Shown piece by piece: positions 1 to 13,913 of a DNA stretch of 64,000 nucleotides. The translations under genes were made by a program, and so were the position numbers. The DNA comes from Plantactinospora endophytica (GTDB lineage: Bacteria; Actinomycetota; Actinomycetes; Mycobacteriales; Micromonosporaceae). The notes below the pieces were generated by a model, which saw only the letters and a list, made by a program, of their open reading frames with translations, did not search any database and had not been told where the DNA came from. Every line of letters starts with the position of its first letter. The stretch's first letter is position 1. Where the stretch lies: assembly GCF_016862915.1 (NCBI RefSeq), contig NZ_BONW01000037.1:1-64000 (forward strand), read 5' to 3'.

Positions 1-109
1 ATCCGGCGAACACCGCGAACAGGAACGGCAACCGCCGGCTCATCCGGTGAACACCGCGAACAGGAACGGCAACCGCCGGCTCATCCGGCGACCAGCGCGA
101 ACAGAAACG
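1..109. repeat. 41-bp tandem repeat downstream of iolC
   Basis: Two nearly identical 41-bp units (1-41 and 42-82, one mismatch seen) and a diverged partial third (83-109) run up to the stop codon of the leftward kinase gene. The unit starts atccggcgaacaccgcgaac. Frames in it are open but no protein family is recognisable. It is cut by the window edge, so the array may be longer. Confidence 0.85.
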
Positions 110-122
110 TCACCCGGCGACG

Positions 123-1085
123 CTAGCCGACCGGATGCCGGGGGTCGGCGGCGGCCAGTAGTTCGTCGACCTCGGCGCTGGTCGGCATCGCGGCGGAGCA
201 GGCGAGCCGGGACGCCACGATCGCACCGGCCGCGTTGGCGAACCGGACGATCCGGGCCAGCGGCCAGCCGGCGAGCAGCCCGTGGCAGAGGGCACCGCCG
301 AACGCGTCCCCGGCACCGAGCCCGTTCACCACCTCGATCCGGAGCGGCGGTATCTCGACCAGCTCGTCCGCGGTCCGGGCGAGTACGCCCGCCGGCCCCT
401 GCTTCACCACCGCCAGCCGTACGCCCCGGGCCAGCAGCGCCTCCGCCGCCGCGTGCGGTTCACGCTCGCCGACGGCGGTGGCGCACTCGTCGAGGTTGCC
501 GACCGCGACCGTGGCGTACCGGAGCGCCGACTCGTACGCCGACCGGGCGTCCTCACGGGACGGCCAGAACTCCGGTCGGTAGTCGAGGTCGAAGACGGTG
601 TTCCCGACCCGTCCCCGGGCACCGAGGGCGGCGAAGTGGGCATCCCGGCTGGGCAGTTCGCAGAGCCCGGTGCCGGTGAACCAGAAGACCCCGGCGGCCC
701 GGATCGCGGCCAGGTCGAGTTCGTCGGGGCGGATCTCCAGATCGGGTGCCTTGGGATAGCGGTAGAAGTAGATCGGGAAGTCGTCGGGCGGGAAGATCTC
801 GCAGAAGGTGACCGGGGTGGGCAGGCCGGCGACCGGGCTCACCCAGCGGTCGTCCACACCGAAGTCCCGCAGCGCCCGGTGCACGTACTCGCCGAACGGG
901 TCGGCGCCGGTGCGGGTGATCATGGCGACCCGCCGGCCGTGTCGGGCCGCTGCCACGGCGACGTTGGTGGCGCTGCCGCCGAGGAACCTTCCGAACGTCT
1001 CGACCTCGGGCAGCCGGGCGCGGGTCTGGAGTGGATAGAGGTCCACCCCCACCCGGCCCATGCTCAGCACCTCGAACGAGGTCAC
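123..1085 (-). CDS. iolC: 5-dehydro-2-deoxygluconokinase, PfkB family
   Basis: A ribokinase/PfkB-fold sugar kinase. The start matches IolC closely (MGRVGVDLYP near residue 9, GGSATNVAVAAARHG near 37), and the C-terminal PfkB signature NGLGAGDAFGGAL carries the catalytic Asp. IolC phosphorylates 5-dehydro-2-deoxygluconate in myo-inositol breakdown. An upstream TTG at 1121 would add 12 residues without homology. I chose GTG 1085 because a promoter (TTGACC, 18 bp, TTACAT) ends 6 bp before it, which predicts a leaderless mRNA. No other iol gene follows within the window; the rest of the pathway may lie to the left. Family call is firm; the exact substrate follows the family. Confidence 0.88.
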   Translation of the reverse strand: MTSFEVLSMGRVGVDLYPLQTRARLPEVETFGRFLGGSATNVAVAAARHGRRVAMITRTGADPFGEYVHRALRDFGVDDRWVSPVAGLPTPVTFCEIFPPDDFPIYFYRYPKAPDLEIRPDELDLAAIRAAGVFWFTGTGLCELPSRDAHFAALGARGRVGNTVFDLDYRPEFWPSREDARSAYESALRYATVAVGNLDECATAVGEREPHAAAEALLARGVRLAVVKQGPAGVLARTADELVEIPPLRIEVVNGLGAGDAFGGALCHGLLAGWPLARIVRFANAAGAIVASRLACSAAMPTSAEVDELLAAADPRHPVG

Positions 1086-1121
1086 CGAATCATGTAACCC
1101 CCGGTCGTCCCGAACGGTCAA
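1086..1121 (-). promoter_or_regulatory. promoter of iolC, leaderless layout
   Basis: On the minus strand TTGACC (1121-1116) is followed after 18 bp by TTACAT (1097-1092) and after 6 more bases by GTG at 1085. This is the spacing expected when transcription begins on the start codon. Confidence 0.65.
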
Positions 1122-1220
1122 TATCTGCGGTACGCCGGAACGGATGTCGGGCGTGGCGAGCGGCCGGACACCGCGCCGCGATGCCGGAGCACCGGGGCGC
1201 GGTCCAGGGTCGCCGGGCCG

Positions 1221-1967
1221 TCAGCGGTCGATCAGGACGAAGACGCCCCAGCCGAGGTACTCGCGCTGGTATCTGACGTGCTGGACCGGAGCCGTGTCGA
1301 GTTCGGCACGCAGTTCGGCGGACAACTCGTCGTCGGGGTTGTCGTCGAGCCAGCGCCGCAGGTTGAGCCACTGCGCCGCGACGTACCGGTCCCAACTGTC
1401 CTGGTCGGCGAGAACCATCTCCACCACGTCGGTGCCGAGCGCGGCGAATCGTTCGAGTGTCTCCGGCAGTGACCGGAAATCGTCCCGTGCGGTCGCGTGG
1501 CACGCCTCGATCGTGGTCTGGTCGGCCGGCTCGCGCCGCCAGTAGGGTTCGCCGACCAGCATCGTCCCGCCGGGTCGCAGGCTGCGCCGGAGCAGGTCGA
1601 TCGTGCCGGGCACGCCGTCGCCGATCCAGGTGGCGCCGACGCAGGCCGCGACGTCGACCGGGGTGTCGGCGACGTAGCCGGACGCGTCGGCGTGCACGAA
1701 CTCGACCCGGTCGGCGACGCCCAACTCAGCGGCCCGGGCCCGGGCGCCGTCGAGGAACACCGTGCTGATGTCGACTCCGGTACCGGTCACCTGGTGGTCC
1801 CGGGCCCAGGTGCAGAGCATCTCACCCGATCCGCAGGCGAGGTCGAGCATCCGGGTGCCGGGCGACAGTCGCAACGCCTCGCCGAGGGTGGCGAGCTTGC
1901 GCTCGTCGAACGGGTTGTGGATGCGGTGGCCGCTCTCCCGGATGGTGAAGCTACGTGGTAGGTCCAT
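1221..1967 (-). CDS. class I SAM-dependent methyltransferase
   Basis: 248 residues with a Rossmann methyltransferase core. Motif I is LDLACGSGEML (about residues 41-51), the acidic end of strand 2 is GTGVDIS, a later strand reads VDVAACVGATWIGDG, and the post-core helix and strand are LRRSLRPGGTMLVGEPYW. The C-terminal third is rich in Trp, Asp and Arg and probably forms the substrate lid. The ATG at 1967 has an AAGGA-type site about 10 bases upstream. It lies leftward of the oxoproline operon and before iolC, with nothing tying it to either. The methyl acceptor cannot be told from sequence. Confidence 0.85.
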   Translation of the reverse strand: MDLPRSFTIRESGHRIHNPFDERKLATLGEALRLSPGTRMLDLACGSGEMLCTWARDHQVTGTGVDISTVFLDGARARAAELGVADRVEFVHADASGYVADTPVDVAACVGATWIGDGVPGTIDLLRRSLRPGGTMLVGEPYWRREPADQTTIEACHATARDDFRSLPETLERFAALGTDVVEMVLADQDSWDRYVAAQWLNLRRWLDDNPDDELSAELRAELDTAPVQHVRYQREYLGWGVFVLIDR

Positions 1968-2164
1968 TTCTGCTGGTCCTTACGTGCGAGGAGGTGACGG
2001 GGGTCGGCGAGGTCGTCCCGGTCTGGTCGGTCGGGACGGGCAGGACCGTCATCAAATGCACCTCTTCGTACGTCGGGATCGGCACGGGTGCGGCAGACGC
2101 TAGGCCGCCCGCCGCACGCCGTCCAGCGGTTTTCGACTCAGCGTCCGGCGGTCGTCGACCTCGC

Positions 2165-2250
2165 GTCGGCAAAGATGACCGCCCCCACGTTGGCGAAGAT
2201 GACCGACCCCGCGTCGGCAAAAATGACCGCCCTCGCGTTGGCGGAGATCG
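2165..2250. repeat. 24-bp tandem repeat between methyltransferase and VOC genes
   Basis: Three full units of 24 bp (2165-2188, 2189-2212, 2213-2236) and a partial fourth share a gt(c/t)ggcaaagatgaccg-like core. The array ends just before the stop codon (2257) of the VOC gene. It is an uninterrupted direct repeat with no spacers. Confidence 0.85.
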
Positions 2251-2256
2251 TCGAGT

Positions 2257-2688
2257 TCACTTGGCGAAGATCTGGGACTCGTCCCGGAACGCCTTGAACT
2301 CCAGGGCGTTGCCGGCCGGGTCGCGGAAGAACATCGTCCACTGCTCCCCCGGCTCGCCCGCGAACCGCAGGTACGGCTCGATCACGAACTCGCCGCCGCC
2401 GGCCCGGATCCGGTCGGCCAGCACGTGGAACTCCTCGATCGACAGGATCAGCCCGAAGTGCGGCACCGGTACGTCGTGCCCGTCCACCGGGTTCCGGCCC
2501 GCGTCGGCCTGCCGCGCCGCCGGTACGACGTGCGTCACCATCTGGTGGCCGTAGAAGTTCCAGTCGACCCAGGCGTCCGCCGACCGCCCCTCGGCGAGCC
2601 CGAGTACTCCGCCGTAGAAGGCGCGGGCCCGCGCCAGGTCGTCGACCGGAATCGCCAGATGGAAGCCGGGACGGGTGGCCACGGTCAT
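2257..2688 (-). CDS. VOC/glyoxalase-like protein
   Basis: A single-unit vicinal-oxygen-chelate protein of 143 residues. It opens with [20 protein letters not shown], typical of the first beta-alpha module, and ends with [17 protein letters not shown], the usual closing metal-ligand strand with its Glu. Such proteins are dioxygenases, lyases or resistance proteins, and nothing here selects one. The start is ATG 2688, preceded by GGAGAGGAG; an upstream in-frame ATG at 2742 lacks support. It is co-directional with the oxoproline operon 90 bp upstream and could be its last gene, but a functional link is not shown. Confidence 0.85.
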
Positions 2689-2778
2689 CGTCTGCTCCTC
2701 TCCGCCGGGCGCACCCACCCGGCCTCTGTGCCATCCAAGCATGATCTTGTGCGCCGGGCCCGGTCGGACGAGCGCCGC

Positions 2779-3684
2779 TCATGATCCGGGAGACAGCACC
2801 TGGCTGCGCAGCGGGCGGGGCTCGACGACCTGGAACCTGATCGGCTTTCCCGGGGCGGCCTGGGCGACCAGCGGCAGGTCGGCGGGGTGCAGCACGCCGA
2901 TCACCGGATAACCGCCCATGGTCGGATGGTCGGCCAGGAAGATCACCGGTGTTCCGGCGGCCGGCACCTGCACCGCACCGAGTACCACGCCCTCGCTGCG
3001 CAGTTCTCCGCCGATCCGCCGGGGCAGCGCCGGCCCCTCCAGGCGTACGCCGATCCGGTTGCTCAGGGTGGAGACCCGGTAGCTCTCCCGGTCGAGGATG
3101 CGTACCGCGTCGTCGGTGAACCAGTCGGCCCGGGGACCGAGCAGCACCCGCAGGGTCACCTCCTCGGCCAGTGTGCCGGTCGGGGCGACGTCGACCGGGG
3201 CGGGCGGCCCGAGCACCTCGCCCAGCGGCAGTCGGTCACCGACGGCGAGCGGTGCCGGGCCGAGCCCGGAGAGCAGGTCGGTGGAGCGGCTGCCGAGTAC
3301 CGCCGGAACCGCGATGCCGCCGGAGAAGGCAAGGTAGCTGCGCAGTCCTCGCCGGGCGGTGGCCACGTCGACCCGCGCGCCGGCCGGTACCGAGACCGGC
3401 GCCGACCAGCTCGCCGGCCGGCCGTCCACGGTGACCGGGGCCCAGGCGCCGGTAACCGCGACGGTGCCGGCCCGGCCGAGCCGGACCGACACGCCGGTGA
3501 CGGTGGTCTCGATCGTCGCCGCCCCGGGCGGGTTGCCGACCAGCCGGTTCGCCAGCCGGTGCGCCGGCAGGTCGAGCGCGCCGGAGCGAGGCACTCCGAG
3601 ATGCGCGTGCCCGGGCCGGCCGAGGTCCTGCACGGTGCTGAGCACGCCGGACCGGAGCACCTCGACGCAGCGTTCCCCGGTCAT
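2779..3684 (-). CDS. pxpC: 5-oxoprolinase subunit C (biotin-dependent carboxyltransferase-like, KipA type)
   Basis: 301 residues matching the AHS2/KipA family: VLRSGVLSTVQDLGRPGHAHLGVPRSGALD near the N-terminus is typical (seen in pieces around residues 9-38), with ANRLVGNPPGAATIE after it and the C-terminal FLADHPTMGGYPVIG. PxpC works with PxpA and PxpB in ATP-dependent cleavage of 5-oxo-L-proline to L-glutamate. Its start overlaps the stop of pxpB by 4 bp (ATGA type), so the two are probably translationally coupled. It is the last of the recognisable pathway genes in a leftward run that starts at pxpA. Confidence 0.92.
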   Translation of the reverse strand: MTGERCVEVLRSGVLSTVQDLGRPGHAHLGVPRSGALDLPAHRLANRLVGNPPGAATIETTVTGVSVRLGRAGTVAVTGAWAPVTVDGRPASWSAPVSVPAGARVDVATARRGLRSYLAFSGGIAVPAVLGSRSTDLLSGLGPAPLAVGDRLPLGEVLGPPAPVDVAPTGTLAEEVTLRVLLGPRADWFTDDAVRILDRESYRVSTLSNRIGVRLEGPALPRRIGGELRSEGVVLGAVQVPAAGTPVIFLADHPTMGGYPVIGVLHPADLPLVAQAAPGKPIRFQVVEPRPLRSQVLSPGS

Positions 3685-4460
3685 CCGGCGACATCCCGGC
3701 GGTCGACATCCCGAACGTCGACATCCTGGCGGTCGGCGTCCCGACGGCCGACATCCCGAACGTCGGCGTCCCGGCGGTCGACATCCCGGACGTCGACATT
3801 CTCGGCGTCGAGGTTGGCGTCGACGTTCCGGAACCGGACCCGGGTGCCCGGGGTGAGCAGGGCGACCGGGTCCCGGTCCGGGTCGAAGAGCACCAGGTCG
3901 GTGCTGCCGAGCAGTTGCCAGCCGCCGGGCGAGTCCCGGGGGTAGATTCCGGCGTAGCCGCCGGCCAGCGCGACCGAGCCGGCCGGCACCCGGGTCCGGG
4001 GCACGGCCCGCCGGGGCAGGTGGTAGCGCTCCGGCAGCCCGGTCAGGTAGCCGAAGCCGGGGGCGAAGCCGCAGAACGCGACCCGGTACTCGGGTGCGCC
4101 GTGTATCCGCCCGACCTCCTCCTCGGCGACGTCCCAGAGCCGGGCCACCTCGGCCAGGTCGGCGCCGTCGTACCGGACCGGCACCTCGACCAGCGGACCG
4201 TCCGGCGGCCGGGCCGCACCCGGCTGCCAGCCGGCGAGCCGACCGGCGAGTTCCGCCGGATCGTCCAGGCCGTCGACCAGCACGGTGAGTTCACCGGGTA
4301 CGACCTCCTCGACGCCGACCAGTTCGCCCCGGTCCCGCCAGCCGTGCAGTTGTGCCACCAGCGCGGCGGTGTGCGCCGGCTCGGTCACCTCGACCAGCAG
4401 CGCACGCAGCCCCACCGGAATGATCCGCACCGTCGCACACTCCCCGTCGTACCCGCTCAC
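3681..4460 (-). CDS. pxpB: 5-oxoprolinase subunit B (KipI/AHS1 type) with repetitive C-terminal tail
   Basis: About 210 residues match the AHS1/KipI family, including the signature FCGFAPGFGYLTGLP (about 131-145), then PAGSVALAGGYAGIYPRDSPGGW and LLGSTDL (each seen within about residues 160-195). The product is the B subunit of bacterial 5-oxoprolinase. The family normally stops soon after the TPGTRVRF strand. Here about 45 more residues follow, built from charged five-residue units such as DVRDV and DRRDA and encoded by 15-bp DNA repeats. The tail runs to the overlap with pxpC. Whether it is functional or a tolerated repeat expansion is unknown. Confidence 0.92.
   Translation of the reverse strand: MSGYDGECATVRIIPVGLRALLVEVTEPAHTAALVAQLHGWRDRGELVGVEEVVPGELTVLVDGLDDPAELAGRLAGWQPGAARPPDGPLVEVPVRYDGADLAEVARLWDVAEEEVGRIHGAPEYRVAFCGFAPGFGYLTGLPERYHLPRRAVPRTRVPAGSVALAGGYAGIYPRDSPGGWQLLGSTDLVLFDPDRDPVALLTPGTRVRFRNVDANLDAENVDVRDVDRRDADVRDVGRRDADRQDVDVRDVDRRDVAG
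3690..3809. repeat. 15-bp tandem repeat encoding the PxpB tail
   Basis: Eight 15-bp units run from 3690 to 3809, alternating forms of gacatcccgaacgtc and ggcgtcccggcggtc. Because 15 is a multiple of three, copy number can change without breaking the frame. The last copies abut the pxpB stop and pxpC start. Confidence 0.9.
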
Positions 4461-4476
4461 AGCCCGAGGTATCCGC

Positions 4477-5178
4477 TCACAGCCCGAGGTACGAGCGGCG
4501 TACCTCGTCGGAGGCGGCCAGTTCGTCGGCCGGTCCGGACATCACCACCTCGCCGGTCTGCAGCACGTACGCCCGGTCGGCCAGCTCCAGCGCGGCCCGC
4601 AGGTTCTGCTCGACCAGCAGCATGGTGGTGCCGGCGCGGCGGATCTCGGCCAGCACCTCGAAGATCATCTTGGTGAACTTCGGTGAGATGCCGAGCGAGG
4701 GCTCGTCGAGCATCAGCAGTTTCGGCCGGCTCATCAGCGCCCGGCCGAGCGCCACCATCTGCTGCTCCCCGCCGGAGAGCGTGCCGGCGCGCTGGCCGGA
4801 GCGCTCGGCGAGGATCGGGAAGAGGTCGTAGACCCGGGTCAGGTCCGCCTCCCGTTCGGCAGCGGTGCGATGGTAGCCGCCGAGCAGCAGGTTCTGCACC
4901 ACGGTCTGGTGGCCGAACAGTCGCCGCCCCTCCGGCACCAGCACCGCGCCCCGGCGCGCGATCCGGTACGCCGGCAGCCCGCTCACGTCCTCGTCGAGGA
5001 AGGTCACCGCACCGCGTACCGGCCGGTGCAGGCCGGAGACCGCCGCCAGCAGAGTGCTCTTGCCGGCACCGTTCGCGCCGACCAGCGCCACCAGCTCGCC
5101 GGCCTCGACCCGCAGGTCGACACCGCGCAGCGCGACGACTCCGGCGTAGTCCACGTGGAGATCCCGCACGGTCAGCAT
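4477..5178 (-). CDS. livF: HAAT-family ABC transporter ATPase, LivF type
   Basis: 233 residues with Walker A GANGAGKST near residue 33, the signature LSGGEQQM near 133 and Walker B LLMLDEPSLG near 154, all complete. The short form and order mark the LivF member of a branched-chain amino-acid type importer. It directly follows livG (start 5178, livG stop 5179) and precedes pxpB by 16 bp, so importer and 5-oxoprolinase are one transcription unit. The transported compound is therefore more likely 5-oxoproline or a small peptide than a branched-chain amino acid; this is inference from context. Confidence 0.88.
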   Translation of the reverse strand: MLTVRDLHVDYAGVVALRGVDLRVEAGELVALVGANGAGKSTLLAAVSGLHRPVRGAVTFLDEDVSGLPAYRIARRGAVLVPEGRRLFGHQTVVQNLLLGGYHRTAAEREADLTRVYDLFPILAERSGQRAGTLSGGEQQMVALGRALMSRPKLLMLDEPSLGISPKFTKMIFEVLAEIRRAGTTMLLVEQNLRAALELADRAYVLQTGEVVMSGPADELAASDEVRRSYLGL

Positions 5179-5901
5179 CTACAGCGCCTTCCCCAGGTAC
5201 GCCTCGACCACCGTCGGGTCGTGCGCGACCTGCTCCGGCGTACCCTCGCTGATCTTCTGCCCGTAGTGCAGCACCACCACCCGGTGGCAGAGCGGCATGA
5301 TGACCTCCATTACGTGTTCCACCATCAGGATGGTGACGCCGCCCCGGTTGATGGTGCGGACGATCTCCACCGCCTCCCGGGCCTCGGTCGGGGTCAGCCC
5401 GGAGAGCACCTCGTCGAGCAGCAGCAGCTTCGGTTCGGTGGCCAGCGCCCGCCCCATCTCCAGGCGCTTCTTCCATGCGGCGGTGAGCGACGCGGCCGGC
5501 GAGTCGAGCACCGGGCCGAGCCCGGCCAGCTCGGCGACCTCGTCGGCCCGTCGCCGGGCGTCCCGCAACCGACTGTGCCGGCCGAACGCCGCCGTGGTGA
5601 GGTTCTCCCGCACGGTCATCGAGCCGAACACCCGCATGAGCTGGAAGGTGCGGCCGACGCCGGCCCGGGCCGCCCGGTGCGGCGCCCAGCCGGTGACGTC
5701 CCGGCCGTCGAACTCCAGCCGGCCCGAGGTGGGTCGCTGCGCGCCGGCCACCATCGAGAAGAGGGTGCTCTTGCCGGCGCCGTTCGGCCCGATCAGCCCG
5801 ACGATCGCCCCCGGTTCCACCTCGAAGCTGACGTCCCGGTTGGCCCAGAGGCCGCCGAACCGGCAGGAGAGGTTGTCGATCCTCAGCAGTGCCCCGGTCA
5901 T
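5179..5901 (-). CDS. livG: HAAT-family ABC transporter ATPase, LivG type
   Basis: Walker A is [12 protein letters not shown] and Walker B is LLLLDEVLSGL. The signature segment reads LTAAWKKRLEMGRAL instead of LSGGQ. A divergent signature of this kind occurs in one branch of LivG proteins (from memory), so activity is not in doubt on this ground alone. I start at ATG 5901, preceded by GAGGTGGAG; an in-frame codon 42 bp upstream has no such site. The gene abuts livF with no spacing. Product: the second ATPase of the importer, on the cytoplasmic face. Confidence 0.87.
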   Translation of the reverse strand: MTGALLRIDNLSCRFGGLWANRDVSFEVEPGAIVGLIGPNGAGKSTLFSMVAGAQRPTSGRLEFDGRDVTGWAPHRAARAGVGRTFQLMRVFGSMTVRENLTTAAFGRHSRLRDARRRADEVAELAGLGPVLDSPAASLTAAWKKRLEMGRALATEPKLLLLDEVLSGLTPTEAREAVEIVRTINRGGVTILMVEHVMEVIMPLCHRVVVLHYGQKISEGTPEQVAHDPTVVEAYLGKAL

Positions 5902-5968
5902 CGCTCCACCTCGTCGGACCTCTCGACGCCGTGACCCGGCCACCCGCCGTTGTTCCCGTTCCGCCTGG

Positions 5969-7054
5969 TCACGGCTTCACCTCAGCAGATCCGGCCGGCT
6001 CCGGAGCGGCTTTCCCGCCGCGTCCACCGCCCAGCCGGCGGGCGACCGGTGCCCAGAGCCGCTGCCCGATGGCGAGCAGGCCGCCCGGCTCGGTGATCGA
6101 GACGAGCACGATCAGCGCGCCGTAGAGCAGCAGGTCGACCGACCGCCCGCTGCCGGAGAACTCCTGCCGGGTGACGTCCTGGACGAAGACCAGCACCCAG
6201 GCGCCGAGCAGCGGCCCCCAGAACCGGCCGACCCCGCCGAGTACCGCCATCAGGGTGAACGACACCGACAGGTCCAGGCCGAGTCCGGAGGGTGGGTCGA
6301 CGAAGAGCACGTACATCACGTAGTAGCCGCCGGCCAGTGCGGTGACCGCGCCGGAGAGCGCCGCCGCCGCGAGCTTGTACCGGTGCACGTCGATCCCGAC
6401 CGCCGCAGCCGCCTCCTGGTCGTCCCGGATGGCCCGTACGTAGTTGCCGGCCCGGCCGCGCAGGAAGAGCCAGACCGCCAGCGCGGCGAGGCAGAAGAAA
6501 CCGAGCGCCACGTAGTAGTACGGCCGCTTGTCCAGCAGCGAGAACTGGAGGTTGGCCAGCGACTGCTCGACCACCGGCAGTTCCCAGCCGTTCGCCTGGC
6601 CGAGTCCGGGCAGGTTGGTGACCAGGATGAAGACGATCTCGGCGACCGCGATGGTGGCGATCGAGTAGTAGTGGTGCCGCAGCCGGAAGCAGGGCCAGCC
6701 GACGGCGGCGGCCAGCAGCGCGGCCAGCGGCAGCGACAGCGCGATGGCCAGCCACGGCGACCAGCCCTGCCGGACCAGCGCCGCGGTGGTGTAGGCGCCG
6801 GTGCCGAAGTACAGCGCGTGTCCGAAGGAGACCTGTCCGGCGTAGCCGCCGAGCAGGTTCCAGCCGGTGGCCGCGATGCCGAAGGTCAGCGCCAGGATGC
6901 CGATGTTGTGTGCCGCCGAGTCCGCGAAGACCAGCGGGTACGCCGCCAGCGCCGCCAGGATCAGCGCGGCGGTACCCCAGGACGGCAGCCGTCGACCCGT
7001 CGGGCCGGACAGCCGGGCCGGTGACGGCCGGCGCAGTACGGTCGGGGCGCTCAT
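5969..7054 (-). CDS. livM: HAAT-family ABC transporter permease, LivM type
   Basis: 361 residues, about ten hydrophobic segments. The motifs are those of LivM: FGIAATGWNLLGGYAGQVSF (about residues 79-98), and RAIRDDQEAAAAVGIDVHRYK in the cytoplasmic loop that docks the ATPase. The N-terminal 30 residues are basic and probably cytoplasmic. A GAGGTGGG site precedes the ATG. The charged C-terminus ends in AEVKP. It lies 22 bp after livH and pairs with it in the membrane channel. Confidence 0.9.
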   Translation of the reverse strand: MSAPTVLRRPSPARLSGPTGRRLPSWGTAALILAALAAYPLVFADSAAHNIGILALTFGIAATGWNLLGGYAGQVSFGHALYFGTGAYTTAALVRQGWSPWLAIALSLPLAALLAAAVGWPCFRLRHHYYSIATIAVAEIVFILVTNLPGLGQANGWELPVVEQSLANLQFSLLDKRPYYYVALGFFCLAALAVWLFLRGRAGNYVRAIRDDQEAAAAVGIDVHRYKLAAAALSGAVTALAGGYYVMYVLFVDPPSGLGLDLSVSFTLMAVLGGVGRFWGPLLGAWVLVFVQDVTRQEFSGSGRSVDLLLYGALIVLVSITEPGGLLAIGQRLWAPVARRLGGGRGGKAAPEPAGSAEVKP

Positions 7055-7076
7055 CGTCCCACCTCGATAGCTCTGC

Positions 7077-7937
7077 TCATCGCGTCCCCAGCAGTCCCTG
7101 TGGCCGCACCAGGACGACCACCAGATAGAGGGCCAGTGCGGCGGCCAGGGTGTAGCTCGGGGCGTACAGGCCGACGACGCCCTGGGCGACGCCGACCAGC
7201 AGACCGGCCAGGGCCGCCCCGGTGATGCTGCCGAAGCCGCCGAAGGCGACCACCACGAAGGCCATCAGCACGAAGCTCACCCCGGCGGTCGGCGACGCGG
7301 AGTAGGAGTTCATCAGCAGTGCTCCGGCGACGCCGGTGGCCAGTCCGGCGATCACCCAGCAGAGCGCGTACATCTTCCGGGGGTCGATGCCCATCAGCGA
7401 GGCCGCCGCCGGGTCCTCCCCGGCGGCCCGCACCGCACCGCCGAGCCGGGTCCGGTTCATGAAGTACGCCACCGCGCCGGTGGCGAGCAGCGCGCCGACG
7501 GCCATGATGACCTGCGGTCCGCCGATCACCACCGGGCCGATCTCCCAGCGCAGCCCGGCGGCCCAGGGTCGGGGCACGGTCCGGGTGTTCGGCGTCCAGA
7601 GGAACTGGGCCAGCCCGCGCAGGAACACCTGCAACCCGAAGGTGACGATCACCTGGGCCAGCGGTGACTTGCCGAGTACCCGGCCGACCGCGCCGAAGTA
7701 CATCAGCGCGCCGGTGAGTGCGATCGACACCCCGGCGAGCGGGATGGAGAGCAGCGGGTCGAGGCCGAGCAACGACCAGGCGAAGAACGAGGTGTACATG
7801 CCGAGCATGACCATCTCGCCGTGCGCGAAGTTGACCACGTCCATCACGCCGTAGATGAGGGTCAGCCCGACCGCGACCAGCGCGAAGACCGCGCCGATCA
7901 GCAGTCCGTTGACCACCGACTGGAGCAGGTCGGTCAT
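7077..7937 (-). CDS. livH: HAAT-family ABC transporter permease, LivH type
   Basis: 286 residues with eight predicted membrane spans. LivH features are clear: SVVNGLLIGAVFALVAVGLT at the start, YGVMDVVNFAHGEMVMLG (about 29-46), RAAGEDPAAASLMGIDPRK in the EAA-like loop and the glycine-rich GAALAGLLVGVAQG near the end. A GGGAGGTC site lies upstream of the ATG. The binding-protein gene ends 37 bp before it. Confidence 0.9.
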   Translation of the reverse strand: MTDLLQSVVNGLLIGAVFALVAVGLTLIYGVMDVVNFAHGEMVMLGMYTSFFAWSLLGLDPLLSIPLAGVSIALTGALMYFGAVGRVLGKSPLAQVIVTFGLQVFLRGLAQFLWTPNTRTVPRPWAAGLRWEIGPVVIGGPQVIMAVGALLATGAVAYFMNRTRLGGAVRAAGEDPAAASLMGIDPRKMYALCWVIAGLATGVAGALLMNSYSASPTAGVSFVLMAFVVVAFGGFGSITGAALAGLLVGVAQGVVGLYAPSYTLAAALALYLVVVLVRPQGLLGTR

Positions 7938-7974
7938 GGTGCCGACCTCCCGGGGTGTCCGTCGCCGCGCCGGC

Positions 7975-9240
7975 TCACTGCTGCGCCTTGTTCATCGGCC
8001 AGATCGGCTGCACGGAGGAGAGTTCGGCCGGGAAGACCACCCGGTACTTCCCCTCGATCATCTGCTCGACCACGCCGGCCGCGCCCGTGTTCTGGCCCTT
8101 GTCGTCGAACTTGATCCCGGTCCAAGGCATGATCGTCTTCTCCCCGGGGATGTCGAGGGCGCGCAGCGCGTCCCGGATCTTCGCCGGCTCGACCGACTTC
8201 GCGGTGTCGATCGCCTGCGCCAGCGCGAGTACGGCGGTGAAGGCCCGGGCCGAGTTCTCGGTCATCGGGGCGCCGTACCGCTGCTGGAACAGGTCCGCCA
8301 CGGTCTTGGCCGCCGGCCGCTTCTCGGCGATCTCGCCGGACCAGGCCGCCCGGGTGGAGGCGCCGTTGGCGAGCGGGCCGAGCCCGGTGGCGAACGCCGG
8401 GTCGGCGAACCCGGTCCCGTAGGCGAGCAGGGCCGGCGGGTGGTACTTCAACTGGTCCAGCGTCTTCATCAGCTTGATCGCCGCGTCGGTGTACGCGAGC
8501 ACGAAGAGTACGTCGGGGTTCTTGCCCCGCACCTGTGCCACCTGCGAGCCGAGGTCGGCGGCGGTCGGGTCGAACGCGACGTTCACCGTGACCGGCAGGC
8601 CGGCCTCGGCGGCGACCTTCTCGGTCACCCCGGCACCGTCGTTGCCGAACTGGTCGTTGCTGTGGAAGATGCCGACCGTACGGATCTGGTCGCCGCCGGC
8701 CTGCCGGGCCTTCAGGTAGTCGAACATCGACCGGGCGAACGTCTCGTCGGTCGGCCCGGTCCGGAAGAACCACTTCAGGCCCCGCTCGGTGAGCGCCACC
8801 GACGAGGACGCCTCGTTGACGAACGGTACGCCGAGCCGCTCGGCGCGCTGGCTGGCCGTCAACGTCACCCCGGACTGGTACGAGCCGACCACGGCGGCGA
8901 CCTTCTCGCCGGTGACCAGCCGGTCGACCTCGCCCGCGCCGACCTCGGGCTTGCCCTGGGTGTCGCCGGTGATCAGCTTGATCGGTGCGCCGCCCAGTCC
9001 GGGCAGCCCCTTGCCCGGCCCGAGTGGCAGGTCGAGTCCGGGATGGTCGTTGTTGACGATGTCCACCGCCAGTTCGGCACCGTGCAGCACGTCGGTGCCC
9101 TGGGTGGCGTTCGGCCCGCTGAGCGGCCACAGTCCGGCGAGCTTGACCTCGTCGGTCGTACCGGCGCCGTCGGATCCTCCGCAGCCGGCGAGCCCGGCGG
9201 CGAGGACGAGAGCGGCCGTGATGCTGGTGAGCTTGCGCAT
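7975..9240 (-). CDS. HAAT-family substrate-binding lipoprotein, LivK type
   Basis: 421 residues. The N-terminus MRKLTSITAALVLAAGLAGC is a lipoprotein signal with the lipidated Cys at 20, so the protein is anchored outside the membrane. The body is a type I periplasmic-binding fold: IKLITGDTQGKPEVGAGEVD (about 94-113), AAVVGSYQSGVTL, RTVGIFHSNDQFG and VLFVLAYTDAAIKLMK are standard LivK strands. Pocket residues cannot be assigned to a ligand from sequence. Gene context points to 5-oxoproline or pyroglutamyl peptides. A repeat-filled gap of 267 bp separates it from the secreted peptidase-like gene upstream. Confidence 0.88.
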   Translation of the reverse strand: MRKLTSITAALVLAAGLAGCGGSDGAGTTDEVKLAGLWPLSGPNATQGTDVLHGAELAVDIVNNDHPGLDLPLGPGKGLPGLGGAPIKLITGDTQGKPEVGAGEVDRLVTGEKVAAVVGSYQSGVTLTASQRAERLGVPFVNEASSSVALTERGLKWFFRTGPTDETFARSMFDYLKARQAGGDQIRTVGIFHSNDQFGNDGAGVTEKVAAEAGLPVTVNVAFDPTAADLGSQVAQVRGKNPDVLFVLAYTDAAIKLMKTLDQLKYHPPALLAYGTGFADPAFATGLGPLANGASTRAAWSGEIAEKRPAAKTVADLFQQRYGAPMTENSARAFTAVLALAQAIDTAKSVEPAKIRDALRALDIPGEKTIMPWTGIKFDDKGQNTGAAGVVEQMIEGKYRVVFPAELSSVQPIWPMNKAQQ

Positions 9241-9320
9241 GGTCAGCCCTTTCTACGGCGGAAGAGGATGGCGAAGGACCCGGCGGCGCGGACGCGGCGG
9301 CGGACGGGCGCTTCGGAACG

Positions 9321-9435
9321 GGTGGGCCGGCCGGACCCGGGGTTGACGGGTGGGCCGGCCAGGGCCCGGGGCTAACAGGTGGGCCGGCCAGGCCCGGGGT
9401 TGACGAGTGGACCGGCCAGCACCGGGGGTTGCCGG
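9321..9435. repeat. 28-29-bp tandem repeat upstream of the binding-protein gene
   Basis: Four units (9321-9348, 9349-9377, 9378-9406, 9407-9435) share ggtgggccggcca followed by cccggggttgac. They fill most of the 267-bp gap between the peptidase-like gene and the binding-protein gene. The sequence is extremely GC-rich and could slow polymerase or form hairpins; no gene is seen in it. Confidence 0.85.
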
Positions 9436-9507
9436 CACCCCGGGCCCGCCGGCCGCTCGGGTGGCGGCCGACCCGGGGGTTGCCGGTCCCCCGGGTCGGC
9501 CGGGGAC

Positions 9508-10866
9508 TCAGGAGACGGCCGCGCCGGCCGCCTTCACCAGGGCGACGGTCTGCTCGATCGTCTGCGCGCGGTCGGCGGCGAACGGCGGGTCGATGACGTC
9601 CAGCGGGTTCTGCGGGTAGACCAGCGAGGAGATGTGCAGGTGTCCGCCGGGTACGTCGGTCGCACCGAGGGCCAGCCGGAGCCGGTTCGACCGGTACATG
9701 CTCTCGTTGGAGAGGTAGTTGCCGCCGCCGCCGGCCTGCGCCTGGGCGTCCGGGGAGGGGCCGTTGTCGTGGCAGGAGACCTTGGTCGGGTCCGGCCGGG
9801 TGTTGCCGGTCCACTCGCAGAGCCGCGGGTTGAGCGCGGTCGGCCAGGGCGTCGTCCCGGCGGCGACCATCTGCTGGTACGGCAACGTGGTCTCGATGAA
9901 CTCGGGATTGGTCGCCGGCTGCGGCCAGTTGGTCACCGGCGGGACGAGTTCGGCGGTGCCCTCGTTGTTGTTGTCCGGGCTGCCGCCGCGCCAGGCGCCG
10001 GCCCACTGCTCGATCGCCATCCGGGCCCGCCCGCCCTGGCTGATCGTCATGATCAGGTCGGCGCGCTCCCGGCTGTTCCGGGTCAGGTGCGGGCCGAACG
10101 CGTCCTCGACGTAGCCGAGGTCGAAGCCGCTCCAGGTCACCGGCAGCGAGACCGCCTGGATCTGCACCAGCTTGTCGCCGACCCGGTACTCCTGCCCGTC
10201 CAGTTGAAGGGCGGACGCGCCGGACGGGTTCGACCGGCGGATCTCCCCGTTGAGCTGGTACGGGTCGAAGCCGCTGACCAGCACCCGGGTCACCGAGCGG
10301 CTGGTGGAGAAGTCGGTCGAGGAGATGCCCCGGGAGGCGTACTCGTAGGTCTTCAGCAGGGCTGCCCGGACGCTGTCGGTGACCCGGAACCGGGGCGTCC
10401 ACTGGCGCAGGTCACGGGTGCCGGTCAGCCGCGACCAGTAGAGCGGGCGGTCGTCGTACCGTTCGATGCTGCCCATCCAGCGCTTGCCCTGGGCCCGCTC
10501 GACGGCCGTACGCCACAGCTCGGCGCCACGGGACTGGAGCAGCTTGTCGGCCTCCTTGACCGACCGTACGCCGCACAGCTCGGCGGTGAGCCGGGTGACG
10601 AACGGGGTGAAGCCGCCGACCTCGATCAGCGTGCTCGGCACCTGCACCCCGCCGGGCTGGGCGGGGGTGTCGATCCGGGTCTCCTCGTAGGTGGACGGGA
10701 GGGTGCGGTCGTAGCACTCCCCCGCCGGTCCGGACTGCCCGGCCGGCTGCGCTCCGGCGGTGCCCGGCATCAGCAGCAGGGCTGCGCCGATGCCGGTGGC
10801 GGTGAGCAGCTTCAGCCGGCCGCGTACACTCTCGGTCAACTTCTGCACATCCAAGGTGATCTTCAC
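9508..10866 (-). CDS. secreted pyroglutamyl-peptidase-I-like protein (peptidase C15 fold), Cys-to-Ser variant
   Basis: About 452 residues. A signal peptide (LKLLTATGIGAALLLMPGTAGA) precedes a 140-residue N-terminal region I do not recognise. The C-terminal 260 residues follow the C15 order: VLVSGFDPYQLNGE with NPSG, LPVTW, ISQGGRARMAIEQWA with the family Glu (about residue 286), PDNNNEG, TTLPYQQMV, GGNYLSNESMYR, and GGHLHISSL with the family His (about 411). In cytosolic PCP-I the segment reads YxCN and holds the nucleophilic Cys; here it is YLSN, Ser at about 386. It would release N-terminal pyroglutamate outside the cell, if active. Start uncertain: GTG 10866, or TTG 10854 with a better AAGGTGA site. 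Confidence 0.82.
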   Translation of the reverse strand: MKITLDVQKLTESVRGRLKLLTATGIGAALLLMPGTAGAQPAGQSGPAGECYDRTLPSTYEETRIDTPAQPGGVQVPSTLIEVGGFTPFVTRLTAELCGVRSVKEADKLLQSRGAELWRTAVERAQGKRWMGSIERYDDRPLYWSRLTGTRDLRQWTPRFRVTDSVRAALLKTYEYASRGISSTDFSTSRSVTRVLVSGFDPYQLNGEIRRSNPSGASALQLDGQEYRVGDKLVQIQAVSLPVTWSGFDLGYVEDAFGPHLTRNSRERADLIMTISQGGRARMAIEQWAGAWRGGSPDNNNEGTAELVPPVTNWPQPATNPEFIETTLPYQQMVAAGTTPWPTALNPRLCEWTGNTRPDPTKVSCHDNGPSPDAQAQAGGGGNYLSNESMYRSNRLRLALGATDVPGGHLHISSLVYPQNPLDVIDPPFAADRAQTIEQTVALVKAAGAAVS

Positions 10867-10991
10867 CTTTCCTCGATAGCCGCGCCGGTTCCGCGTTTCC
10901 AGGGCCAACCGGGGAACGGAGCCGGCGCTTGCGTGGGGGTTTGCGGCGGGCCGCCCGTGGCATCGGGCGGCTGCCGGACAGGTGCGGGAGC

Positions 10992-11033
10992 CGGTGACCG
11001 TCGGTCGGGTGGCAGCCCGGCCGACGGTCACCG
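10992..11033. terminator. strong hairpin between pxpA and the peptidase-like gene
   Basis: Perfect 13-bp arms CGGTGACCGTCGG (10992-11004) and CCGACGGTCACCG (11021-11033) extend inward through a T-G step to CGGG/CCCG around a six-base loop. No T-tract follows on the minus strand. It could partly terminate or process the transcript after pxpA, leaving higher pxpA levels than the downstream genes. Confidence 0.55.
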
Positions 11034-11070
11034 ATCCAGCGGTCGTGCTGCTGGGTGGTGCCGGGACAGC

Positions 11071-11832
11071 TCAGACGAACGAGGCGAGGCTGATGCCGGC
11101 CTCCTGCAACGCGGTGCGGACCTGGCGGGCCAGGTCGACCGCGCCGGGGGTGTCGCCGTGCACGCAGATCGACCGGGCCCGGACCGCCACCGGGGCGCCG
11201 TCGACGGCCGCCACCTGTCCGGTGGTGGCCATCTTCACGCAGCGCCGGGCGACCGCCTCCGGATCGGTGACCAGTGCACCGGGGCTGCCCCGCTTCGCCA
11301 GGCTGCCGTCGGCCTGGTAACCCCGGTCGGCGAACGCCTCCCGAACGGTCTTCAGGCCCACCTCGGCCGCTTGCCGGAGCAGTTGCGAGCCGGGCAGCCC
11401 GAGGATCGGCAGGCTCGGGTCGTACGCGGAGACCGCCGTGACCACGGCGGCGGCCTGCGCCTGGTCGGTGACGGTGCGGTTGTAGAGCGCGCCGTGCGGT
11501 TTGACGTACCGCACCCGGCCGCCCTCGCTGCGGGCGATCCCGTCCAGCGCGGCGAGTTGGTAGAGCACGTCGTCGGAGAGCCGGTCGGGCTCCATGTCGA
11601 TGGCCCGCCGACCGAAGCCGGCCAGGTCCCGGTAGCCGACGTGGGCACCGATGGAGACGTCCCGGCTGATCGCCTCGGCGCAGACCCGGCGCATGATGGT
11701 CGGGTCACCACCGTGGAACCCGCAGGCGACGTTCGCGCTGGTCACGACGGAGAGCAGGGCCATGTCGTCGCCAAGCTGCCAGACCCCGAAACCTTCGCCG
11801 AGATCACTGTTCAGATCGAGGATGACCGACAT
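11071..11832 (-). CDS. pxpA: 5-oxoprolinase subunit A (LamB/YcsF family)
   Basis: 253 residues beginning ILDLNSDLGEGFG, the hallmark of the LamB/YcsF family. SANVACGFHGGDP (about 32-44), VGAHVGYRDLAGFGRR-like residues (about 61-76), VKPHGALYN and the C-terminal ICVHGDTPGA follow, with the conserved His and Asp residues of this TIM-barrel-like hydrolase. PxpA with PxpB and PxpC opens the lactam ring of 5-oxoproline using ATP. ATG 11832 sits behind AGGAGGTGCG; an upstream in-frame codon at 11898 would add residues lacking homology. It is the promoter-proximal gene of the leftward operon, separated by 130 bp from the divergent regulator. Confidence 0.93.
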   Translation of the reverse strand: MSVILDLNSDLGEGFGVWQLGDDMALLSVVTSANVACGFHGGDPTIMRRVCAEAISRDVSIGAHVGYRDLAGFGRRAIDMEPDRLSDDVLYQLAALDGIARSEGGRVRYVKPHGALYNRTVTDQAQAAAVVTAVSAYDPSLPILGLPGSQLLRQAAEVGLKTVREAFADRGYQADGSLAKRGSPGALVTDPEAVARRCVKMATTGQVAAVDGAPVAVRARSICVHGDTPGAVDLARQVRTALQEAGISLASFV

Positions 11833-11880
11833 CGCACCTCCTGTGGCTGTGGTGAACGCCGTGGGTTCAGGTTGGCAGAC

Positions 11881-11911
11881 TGTTGAACAATCCGTCAATG
11901 GTCATGTTGAC
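11881..11911. promoter_or_regulatory. palindromic operator candidates between pxpA and the GntR gene
   Basis: Two inverted repeats lie in the divergent gap: TGTTGAACA (11881-11889) and GTCAA, 8 bp, TTGAC (11894-11911). FadR-type GntR proteins often bind short palindromes in their own divergent promoters. No convincing -10/-35 pair was found on either strand. Confidence 0.45.
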
Positions 11912-11962
11912 TTGTAACCTCGTCGTAGCATGGACCCTTCTCTCGATTGTGGGCCCGACGGC

Positions 11963-12688
11963 ATGAAGGACAATGACCCCGTGACGTGGCTGGCGAAGCT
12001 GCAGGACGACCGTTCGTTGATCAGTCGGGCGAGCACCGCGCAGCGGGTGGCGGAGATACTTCGGGCCCGGATCACCGAGGGTGCGCTGCTGCCGGGTACC
12101 CGGCTCTCCGAGGAGATGATCGGCGCGGCGCTCGGCGTCTCCCGCAACACCCTCCGGGAGTCGTTCCGGCTGCTGATGCACGAGCGACTCGTGGTGCACG
12201 AACTCAACCGGGGCGTCTTCGTCCGGGTGCTCGACGTACAGGACGTCGTCGACATCTACCGGCTCCGCCGGGTGCTGGAGTGCGCGGCCGTCCGCAACGC
12301 GGGAAACAGTCCGGCCGGGGCGACGGAGGCGATCGAGGCCGCGCTGGTCGAGGGCGAGCAGGCCGCCGCACAGCAGCGGTGGTTCGACGTGGGTACCGCC
12401 AACATGCAGTTCCACCAGGCCATCGCGGGCCTGACCGGCAGCCCTCGGATCGAGGAGATCATGCGGCAGGCGCTGGCCGAGATCCGGCTCGCCTTCCACG
12501 TGATGGCCGCACCGCAGACCTTCCACCAGCCGTACCTGGACCGGCACCGCGAGCTGCTGGAGCTGATCCGGAGCGGCGAGGTCGAGCGGGCGCACACGGT
12601 ACTCGACGACTACCTGCGGACTGCGGAGCGGCAACTCGTCGACGCGTACGCCGAGCGGGTGCCGGAGGGCGCGGCCGTACCCCGTTGA
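11963..12688 (+). CDS. GntR-family regulator, FadR/FCD subfamily
   Basis: About 241 residues. The winged helix is AQRVAEILRARITEGALLPG with LSEEMIGAALGVSRNTLRES (recognition helix about residues 48-60). The all-alpha FCD ligand domain follows, with its usual Asp/Arg/His residues (DIYRLRRVLE, FHQAIAGLTG, RHRELLELIRSGE). It is divergent from pxpA and so probably controls the oxoproline operon, with 5-oxoproline or a related acid as a candidate effector. Possible starts are ATG 11930, ATG 11963 and GTG 11981; the last has AAGGA 10 bases upstream. Family call is certain, target inferred. Confidence 0.9.
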   Translation: MKDNDPVTWLAKLQDDRSLISRASTAQRVAEILRARITEGALLPGTRLSEEMIGAALGVSRNTLRESFRLLMHERLVVHELNRGVFVRVLDVQDVVDIYRLRRVLECAAVRNAGNSPAGATEAIEAALVEGEQAAAQQRWFDVGTANMQFHQAIAGLTGSPRIEEIMRQALAEIRLAFHVMAAPQTFHQPYLDRHRELLELIRSGEVERAHTVLDDYLRTAERQLVDAYAERVPEGAAVPR

Positions 12689-12716: not shown

Positions 12717-13913
12717 TCAGACGGTGCGCAGCGCGTACACCCCGGCGTCGGTGCCGGCCGCCGCGCCGCCACCCAGGGCGGACCAGCCGGTGCCGTCCCA
12801 GCCGGCGACGTGGTTCGCCACCACCCCGCCGGCCCGGAGGAAGAACCCGCCGGCGACCAGCCGACCACTGTGGACGGCGACGGCCAGCACGATGTCCTCG
12901 GTACCCCCGCCGAGGGCGGACCAGCCCGTCCCGTCCCAGCGGGCGACGTAGTTCGCCGCCGACCCGCCGGCCCCGGTGAACGTGCCGCCGACGACCAGCG
13001 CCGCGCCGAAAACGGTGAGCGCCCGGCCCTCGGCGTTCAGTCCGGCACCGAGAGCAGCCCACCCGCTGCCGGTCCACTCGGCGACGTAGTTCGCGGCGAC
13101 GCCACCGGCCTGGGTGAAGCCGCCGGTGGCCACCAGCGCGCCGTCGAAGACCGCCAACGCCAGCACGTCGCCGTTGAAGCCGGTGCCCAGGGTCGTCCAG
13201 GCACCGCCGGTCCACCGGGCGATCCCGTTGGCCGCCGTACCGCCGGCCTGGCCGAACCCGCCGCCGACGATCAGGGCGCCGTCGTGCACGGCCAGGTCCC
13301 AGACCGACGGTACGTCCACGCCGGTGCCGTTCGGCCCGGTCAGCGGCCACCACTCGGTGCCGTCCCACCGGGCGACGTGGTTCACGGTCACGCCGCCGGC
13401 CCGGAGGAACTGCCCGCCGACGATCAGGTCGCCGTCGAACACCGTCAGGGCGTCGACGTAGTCGAGGGCGGTGGTCATCACGCCGGTACCGGACGAGCCG
13501 GTCAGTGGTGACCAGGCGGTGCCGTCCCAGCGGGCGATGCCGTTCACCCGGATCCCGCCGGCGGTGAGGAAACTACCCCCGGCGATCAGGTCGCCGTCGT
13601 AGACGGCCAGTGCGGTGACCGAGCCGTCCGGTCCGGCGCTCGACGCGGCGCCGAGCCTCGACCAGGCGGTGCCGTTCCAGGCAGCGAGGCGGTCGACGGC
13701 GGTACCGCCGGCCCGGGTGAAGGTCCCGCCCGCGTAGAGGCCGGGGGCGGCGGCCATCCGGGCGTCGTCGGGGCCGGCGACGCGCTCCGGGCCGTGCGCC
13801 GACCGCTCGGCGGCGAAACCCGGCCGGTGCGGCGCGACGCTCCACAGGCAGATCGCCGCCAGCGCGAGCACGGCCAGCCCACGCCCCGGGGTGGACCTGC
13901 CGAATACGGACAT
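12717..13913 (-). CDS. secreted seven-repeat beta-propeller-like protein
   Basis: 398 residues. A signal peptide (RGLAVLALAAICLWSVAPH) is followed by seven copies of a 45-60-residue repeat with the consensus GGxFxxAGGxxxNxxAxWxGxxWxxLG. Repeat cores begin near residues 61, 112, 166, 220, 266, 311 and 356. Seven copies fit a complete seven-bladed propeller. Related repeat proteins are often described as galactose-oxidase-like or kelch-like, but no copper ligands or other catalytic residues are evident, so a binding or surface role is more likely. The gene is alone, convergent with the GntR gene, and its upstream region holds an unusual AT-rich block. Confidence 0.75.
   Translation of the reverse strand: MSVFGRSTPGRGLAVLALAAICLWSVAPHRPGFAAERSAHGPERVAGPDDARMAAAPGLYAGGTFTRAGGTAVDRLAAWNGTAWSRLGAASSAGPDGSVTALAVYDGDLIAGGSFLTAGGIRVNGIARWDGTAWSPLTGSSGTGVMTTALDYVDALTVFDGDLIVGGQFLRAGGVTVNHVARWDGTEWWPLTGPNGTGVDVPSVWDLAVHDGALIVGGGFGQAGGTAANGIARWTGGAWTTLGTGFNGDVLALAVFDGALVATGGFTQAGGVAANYVAEWTGSGWAALGAGLNAEGRALTVFGAALVVGGTFTGAGGSAANYVARWDGTGWSALGGGTEDIVLAVAVHSGRLVAGGFFLRAGGVVANHVAGWDGTGWSALGGGAAAGTDAGVYALRTV

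Follow-up and report, generated by a model that had tools for sequence, protein, structure and literature searches.

Can one gene cluster of a soil actinobacterium release, import, and degrade 5-oxoproline (pyroglutamate)? The question is raised by a stretch of 64,000 nucleotides from Plantactinospora endophytica (contig NZ_BONW01000037.1, positions 1 to 64,000; here called the window). On its minus strand, a run of genes proceeds leftward from position 11829 in the order pxpA, a gene for a predicted secreted protein of the peptidase C15 fold (the C15 gene), livK, livH, livM, livG, livF, pxpB, and pxpC, and a GntR/FCD regulator gene lies divergent from pxpA, on the strand opposite to these nine genes. 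A preliminary description of the same DNA had listed this run and its FCD-type GntR gene, and Pfam and NCBIfam matches confirmed all of them in place. We consider it probable, at roughly 60%, that the locus serves the scavenging of 5-oxoproline under a PxpR-type GntR repressor, with release by the C15-fold protein, import by the Liv proteins, and ring opening by PxpABC. The genes, the conservation of their neighborhood, the operator, the C15 fold, and its Ser-His-Glu site are read from the sequence, and from these we infer the steps of the pathway. 5-Oxoproline would release the GntR repressor from the box between pxpA and gntR. The exported C15-fold protein, with Ser386 as putative nucleophile, would cut N-terminal pyroglutamate off external peptides or proteins; LivK would bind the free 5-oxoproline and LivHMGF would import it; and PxpABC would use ATP to open the ring, yielding glutamate. 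LivKHMGF would fill the role that the secondary transporter PxpT has in other actinobacteria.

A PxpR-type operator between pxpA and gntR

In Corynebacterium glutamicum, the GntR-type PxpR represses pxpTABC through the operator AGATTGTTCAACAATCT and binds 5-oxoproline with a dissociation constant (KD) of 726 nM (PMC13274462). The window carries AGACTGTTGAACAATCC, identical at 15 of 17 positions, in the same intergenic position, and it shares with the described cluster PxpABC and a divergent GntR-type regulator. In the 9.68-Mb genome of the window, this box is the only site with two or fewer mismatches to the consensus RGATTGTTSAACAATCY, and the backward-pattern control gave 0. Simulated sequence of the same dinucleotide makeup (30 runs) held no site at three or fewer mismatches and 0.13 per 64 kb at four. 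Across 61 genomes, the box pattern yielded 47 sites versus 6 for the backward control, and for 15 of 30 annotated box loci, the nearest gntR, pxp, or C15 gene is no more than 1.5 kb away. The regulator is called PxpR-like here on the basis of its domains, its position, and the box. Sequence evidence of this kind makes a strong case for predicted PxpR-type control of the window cluster.

The same box reaches C15 genes elsewhere. It occurs at four or fewer mismatches in the 520 bp upstream of the C15 gene in 9 of 101 loci; outside that 520-bp span, the same loci hold 12 boxes in 1.80 Mb, 11 of which stand at gntR, pxpA, or livK promoters. (Locus L143, which offered no anchor, is outside the box count and has a four-mismatch site 8.5 kb away.) The pxp genes are absent from seven of the nine boxed C15 loci (L018, L035, L036, L061, L073, L122, and L137, with gntR in L036 and L061) and present in L040 and L117. 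Genome G055 has just two boxes, the first at its pxp cluster, the second ahead of an unlinked C15 gene, and G386 and G371 likewise have boxes with three to four mismatches at the pxp operon and ahead of an unlinked C15 gene. Eight other C15-bearing genomes have a box at five of the nine pxp loci checked.

Conservation and modularity of the neighborhood

We fetched 103 C15-bearing places (54 named loci plus 9 and 40), of which 102 remained after L049, a duplicate of L027, was dropped; some fetched neighborhoods end at contig ends. Conservation of the neighborhood in relatives, which the preliminary description had proposed to look for, was found: the complete gene set is retained in five of six same-genus genomes and in one distant genome (G117), where liv genes, gntR, C15, and all three pxp genes stand in a rearranged order. 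pxpA lies near C15 in 15 of the 102 loci (five Plantactinospora, two Pseudokineococcus, Kribbella, five Lentzea, G087, and G117) and livK in 8 (five Plantactinospora, G016, G117, and a Sphaerobacter metagenome bin), with BLAST identities to the window LivK of 72 to 95% in all of the latter except the Sphaerobacter bin (41%). C15 and liv form a separable block: the same-genus genome G006 has neither of them between its pxpA and pxpB genes (GntR, box, pxpA, pxpB, pxpC, and then a glyoxalase gene), and in G016 C15-livKHMGF is found alone, with the pxp genes at another place.

The importer and its cargo

PxpT is required by C. glutamicum for growth on 5-oxoproline (PMC13274462). The C15 gene of Kribbella, Pseudokineococcus, and G087 adjoins pxpABC and a PxpT homologue, which in Kribbella matches Pfam Nramp; a fifth such locus, L036, is one whose sequence stops within the PxpT gene. 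The five C15-PxpT loci fall into one clade of a tree of 100 sequences, together with a few loci that lack PxpT. G117, the Plantactinospora sequences, and unlinked Actinoplanes-type genes belong to the sister clade, and the Sphaerobacter bin, which has liv genes of its own, is basal to the two clades. With the Kribbella homologue as the query, no match to PxpT at E ≤ 1e-8 turned up in the eight C15- and liv-bearing genomes tested, including that of the window (G000). Because LivKHMGF stands where other lineages have PxpT, the importer probably carries 5-oxoproline, a cargo that we regard as likely. Comparable places hold an MFS gene in G055 and a dipeptide-type ABC importer in G028. LivK orthologues (at least 70% identity) occur in 7 of 150 family genomes, every one of which also has C15, and, among 394 class genomes, in G117; weaker homologues, at 36 to 39%, occur in nine class genomes. 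LivK position 276, a Thr or Ser, aligns to Asp226 of 3ip5, which we take to hold the ligand amino group, and we give this little weight.

It is unlikely, in our view, that LivKHMGF is a mere neighbor under a shared promoter and takes up pyroglutamyl peptides, branched-chain amino acids, or amino acids in general. Most HAAT systems do import amino acids, the nearest solved homologue (8wch, E 4e-87) is named "Probable Leu/Ile/Val-binding protein," and the dipeptide-type importer and pxpA beside a PxpR-type box in G028 make peptide import by such clusters possible. These points are set against specific LivK orthologues that travel with C15, the C15-PxpT pairing in the sister clade, and the fact that the next HAAT binding protein in the window genome is only 27% identical to LivK. 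That the cluster only disposes of 5-oxoproline formed internally by spontaneous cyclization, as damage control without external scavenging, is very improbable: every cell forms the compound, and in C. glutamicum the basal expression of pxp was ascribed to it (PMC13274462), but for an internal waste product it would be senseless to place an importer and a secreted protein under shared control.

The G028 cluster is of separate interest (L189, positions 1 to 7894). Its PxpR-type box and GntR gene face the dipeptide-type ABC importer, an acyl-transferase-like (AAT) gene, and pxpA, and it possibly imports pyroglutamyl or other peptides.

A secreted C15-fold protein with serine in place of cysteine

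The window protein has the fold of peptidase C15 (pyroglutamyl peptidase I, or PCP-I; clan CF), at 18 bits against a curated Pfam PF01470 cutoff of 22.7, which it does not reach; a relative in G040 scores 24 bits. The catalytic triad of C15 peptidases is Glu-Cys-His (PMC12445089). Glu286 and His411 are present in the window protein, and Ser386 replaces the Cys. The protein further differs from PCP-I in its export signal, an additional helical N-terminal domain of about 135 residues (residues about 50 to 185), and an insert before the nucleophile. Its gene starts with GTG, preceded by GAGGAAAG, and encodes a hydrophobic stretch ending in TAGA. Ahead of the conserved part, 88 of 103 rows show a hydrophobic 12-residue stretch (mean of at least 1.5), a figure that overcounts because this crude hydrophobicity test used stop-to-stop frames.

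Ser, His, and Glu are invariant across 46 C15-type sequences, and Ser was found by motif in 99 of the 102 nonduplicate loci. The other three are L143 (Ser by eye, without His), L146 (Ala, without His), and L065, which is frameshifted and was excluded from the nucleophile count; L143 and L146 are signal-poor relatives and likely inactive members. Plasmid-borne relatives from three phyla keep Ser and His in six of six cases, with Glu changed to Asp in one. We rejected assignment to the canonical PCP-I family on account of the serine, and pyroglutamate release therefore cannot be deduced from the family name. Removal of N-terminal pyroglutamate by this protein is plausible.

The protein might instead be no peptidase at all: a dead or repurposed form, such as a binding protein that is secreted or an enzyme that hydrolyzes another cyclic or blocked amide, in a locus that only imports and degrades free 5-oxoproline. 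The lost cysteine fits this, as do the location of most C15 relatives away from pxp genes and a signal-less branch in which L143 has lost His and L146 has lost Ser as well, so that the fold can persist without the triad. A dead protein, however, would be expected to drift at the very residues that are invariant in the 46 sequences and, for Ser and His, in all six plasmid-borne relatives, and we judge this alternative rather improbable.

Several neighbors of C15-type genes deserve mention. On plasmid pOXA436 (L243, 3845-5002), a Ser-type C15-fold gene annotated as hypothetical adjoins an OXA-48-family beta-lactamase gene. A Tenacibaculum plasmid (L244, 3326-5110) encodes a Ser-type C15-fold domain at the C terminus of a protein beside contractile-system tube and baseplate genes; pyroglutamyl-peptidase domains are mentioned in contractile systems in one report (PMC3482391). 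A gamma-glutamyltranspeptidase gene adjoins the C15-type gene in Amycolatopsis (L043, 7047-9317), and a gene for a 545-residue protein with no Pfam match lies just upstream of C15 in Lentzea (L054, 7293-8930).

Weighing the evidence for scavenging

A number of observations count against 5-oxoproline scavenging as the function of the locus. At half of the box loci examined (15 of 30), no gene of the gntR, pxp, or C15 type lies as close as 1.5 kb, and some sites are therefore chance occurrences or belong to other regulators. G016 has a box at C15-liv, and neither a box nor a GntR gene was seen at its pxp locus. About 80 of the 102 C15 loci (Actinoplanes, Amycolatopsis, Geodermatophilus, and Streptomyces types) have no pxp, liv, or nearby box; the C15 family is therefore not everywhere tied to 5-oxoproline and, as most relatives lie outside the PxpR regulon, may serve more than one job. 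An exchange of Cys for Ser usually reduces the activity of thiol enzymes, so the C15-fold protein could be inactive. PxpT is absent from 11 of 12 genomes tested, and this absence is weak evidence because they include G006, G028, and G055, which have other carriers or none recognized. G006 has pxpABC and neither importer type, and the lone LivK homologues at 36 to 39%, from one other family, had no pxp, C15, or box at four of four loci examined. Finally, the GC-rich hairpin after the C15 gene, possibly an attenuator, terminator, or stabilizer, may split the transcript of the run; a strong hairpin occurs at the same position in four of six liv-bearing loci examined.

The preliminary description had proposed a self-contained operon, run by one regulator, for extracellular release, import, and ring opening. 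The conserved neighborhood, the unique operator between pxpA and gntR, and the PxpT swap speak in part for that pathway. Self-containment gives way to a separable C15-livKHMGF block, and the run may not be a single transcript. PCP-I-type release by family membership falls with the serine, and the PxpT swap points to 5-oxoproline rather than to pyroglutamyl peptides as the cargo.

Comparison with known systems

Until 2026, little work had been devoted to bacteria that feed on 5-oxoproline (PMC13274462). In the same source, the C. glutamicum cluster is described with a single PxpT (NRAMP-like, APC superfamily), unlike the five-part ABC importer of the window, and without a C15-fold gene. The 5-oxoproline receptors DctP6 and DctP7 of Bordetella resemble the window system in binding-protein-dependent uptake and differ from it in being TRAP rather than ABC components (PMC13274462, likewise). 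The window importer matches HAAT (LivKHMGF) systems in five-part makeup and gene order, and differs in an operon context and operator that suggest 5-oxoproline. The kip genes are presumably part of the ycsFGI-kip cluster of Bacillus subtilis. That cluster and pxpAGBC of Clostridioides difficile also combine pxpABC with a transporter, which is of the PxpT/YcsG type, and no secreted C15-fold gene is described for them (PMC13274462).

One predicted sensor in the window locus ties a putative exported enzyme to uptake and ring opening. Many extracellular proteins have an N terminus blocked by pyroglutamate, and a secreted deblocking enzyme would therefore open a nutrient pool; such an enzyme, if real, could also serve protein sequencing and peptide work. 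LivKHMGF is put forward specifically as a candidate 5-oxoproline importer of the ABC type, and the C15-fold protein offers a natural test of whether Ser can stand in for Cys in the pyroglutamyl-peptidase fold. A bolder reading, whose odds we would put slightly below even, is that this is the first serine branch of that fold (clan CF): a widespread exported Ser-His-Glu family. In several lineages of actinobacteria, this family would be part of the PxpR regulon and supply a dedicated 5-oxoproline ABC importer, a third kind of uptake beside PxpT and TRAP.

Gene identities and minor features

The PxpABC subunits all score above curated cutoffs (PxpA, NF003814, 363 versus 226; PxpB, TIGR00370, 148 versus 145.55; PxpC, TIGR00724, 272.9 versus 230.2), and PxpC is below that of the stricter model NF045499 (212 bits versus 500). 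The HAAT set is complete, with a binding protein, two BPD_transp_2 permeases, and two ATPases. The ATG start of pxpA lies downstream of AGGAGG.

Table 1. Features of the putative 5-oxoproline locus (window coordinates)
Feature	Position	Strand	Basis
GntR/FCD regulator, PxpR-like	11930..12688	+	Pfam GntR and FCD; homologues adjoin matching boxes in other pxp clusters
PxpR-type operator AGACTGTTGAACAATCC (predicted)	11877..11893	none	15/17 versus published site
pxpA, 5-oxoprolinase subunit A	11071..11829	-	Pfam LamB_YcsF, 338 bits; NCBIfam NF003814
Secreted C15-fold protein (predicted)	9508..10866	-	Ser386-His411-Glu286 where C15 has Cys-His-Glu
GC-rich hairpin region, directly after C15 stop	9422..9507	-	Fold z-score -3.2 for 9241-9510
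livK, HAAT-type solute-binding lipoprotein	7975..9240	-	Pfam Peripla_BP_6, 178 bits; lipobox LAGC
livH permease	7077..7937	-	Pfam BPD_transp_2
livM permease	5969..7054	-	Pfam BPD_transp_2
livG ATPase	5179..5943	-	Pfam ABC_tran and BCA_ABC_TP_C
livF ATPase	4477..5178	-	Pfam ABC_tran; top NCBIfam model LivF, under its cutoff
pxpB, 5-oxoprolinase subunit B	3681..4460	-	TIGR00370; C-terminal tail from 15-bp repeat array
pxpC, 5-oxoprolinase subunit C	2779..3684	-	TIGR00724

Repeats mark several places in the cluster. The 3' end of pxpB (3689-3811) is an array of 8.2 copies of its 15-bp repeat, and the resulting acidic/basic tail varies among close relatives. A 28- to 29-bp tandem repeat of about four copies (9318-9435) fills part of the gap between C15 and livK, which is shorter in relatives. 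A repetitive-protein gene (12717-13913) is convergent with gntR, and loci L016, L017, and L070 to L072 of the same genus also have it next to the cluster.
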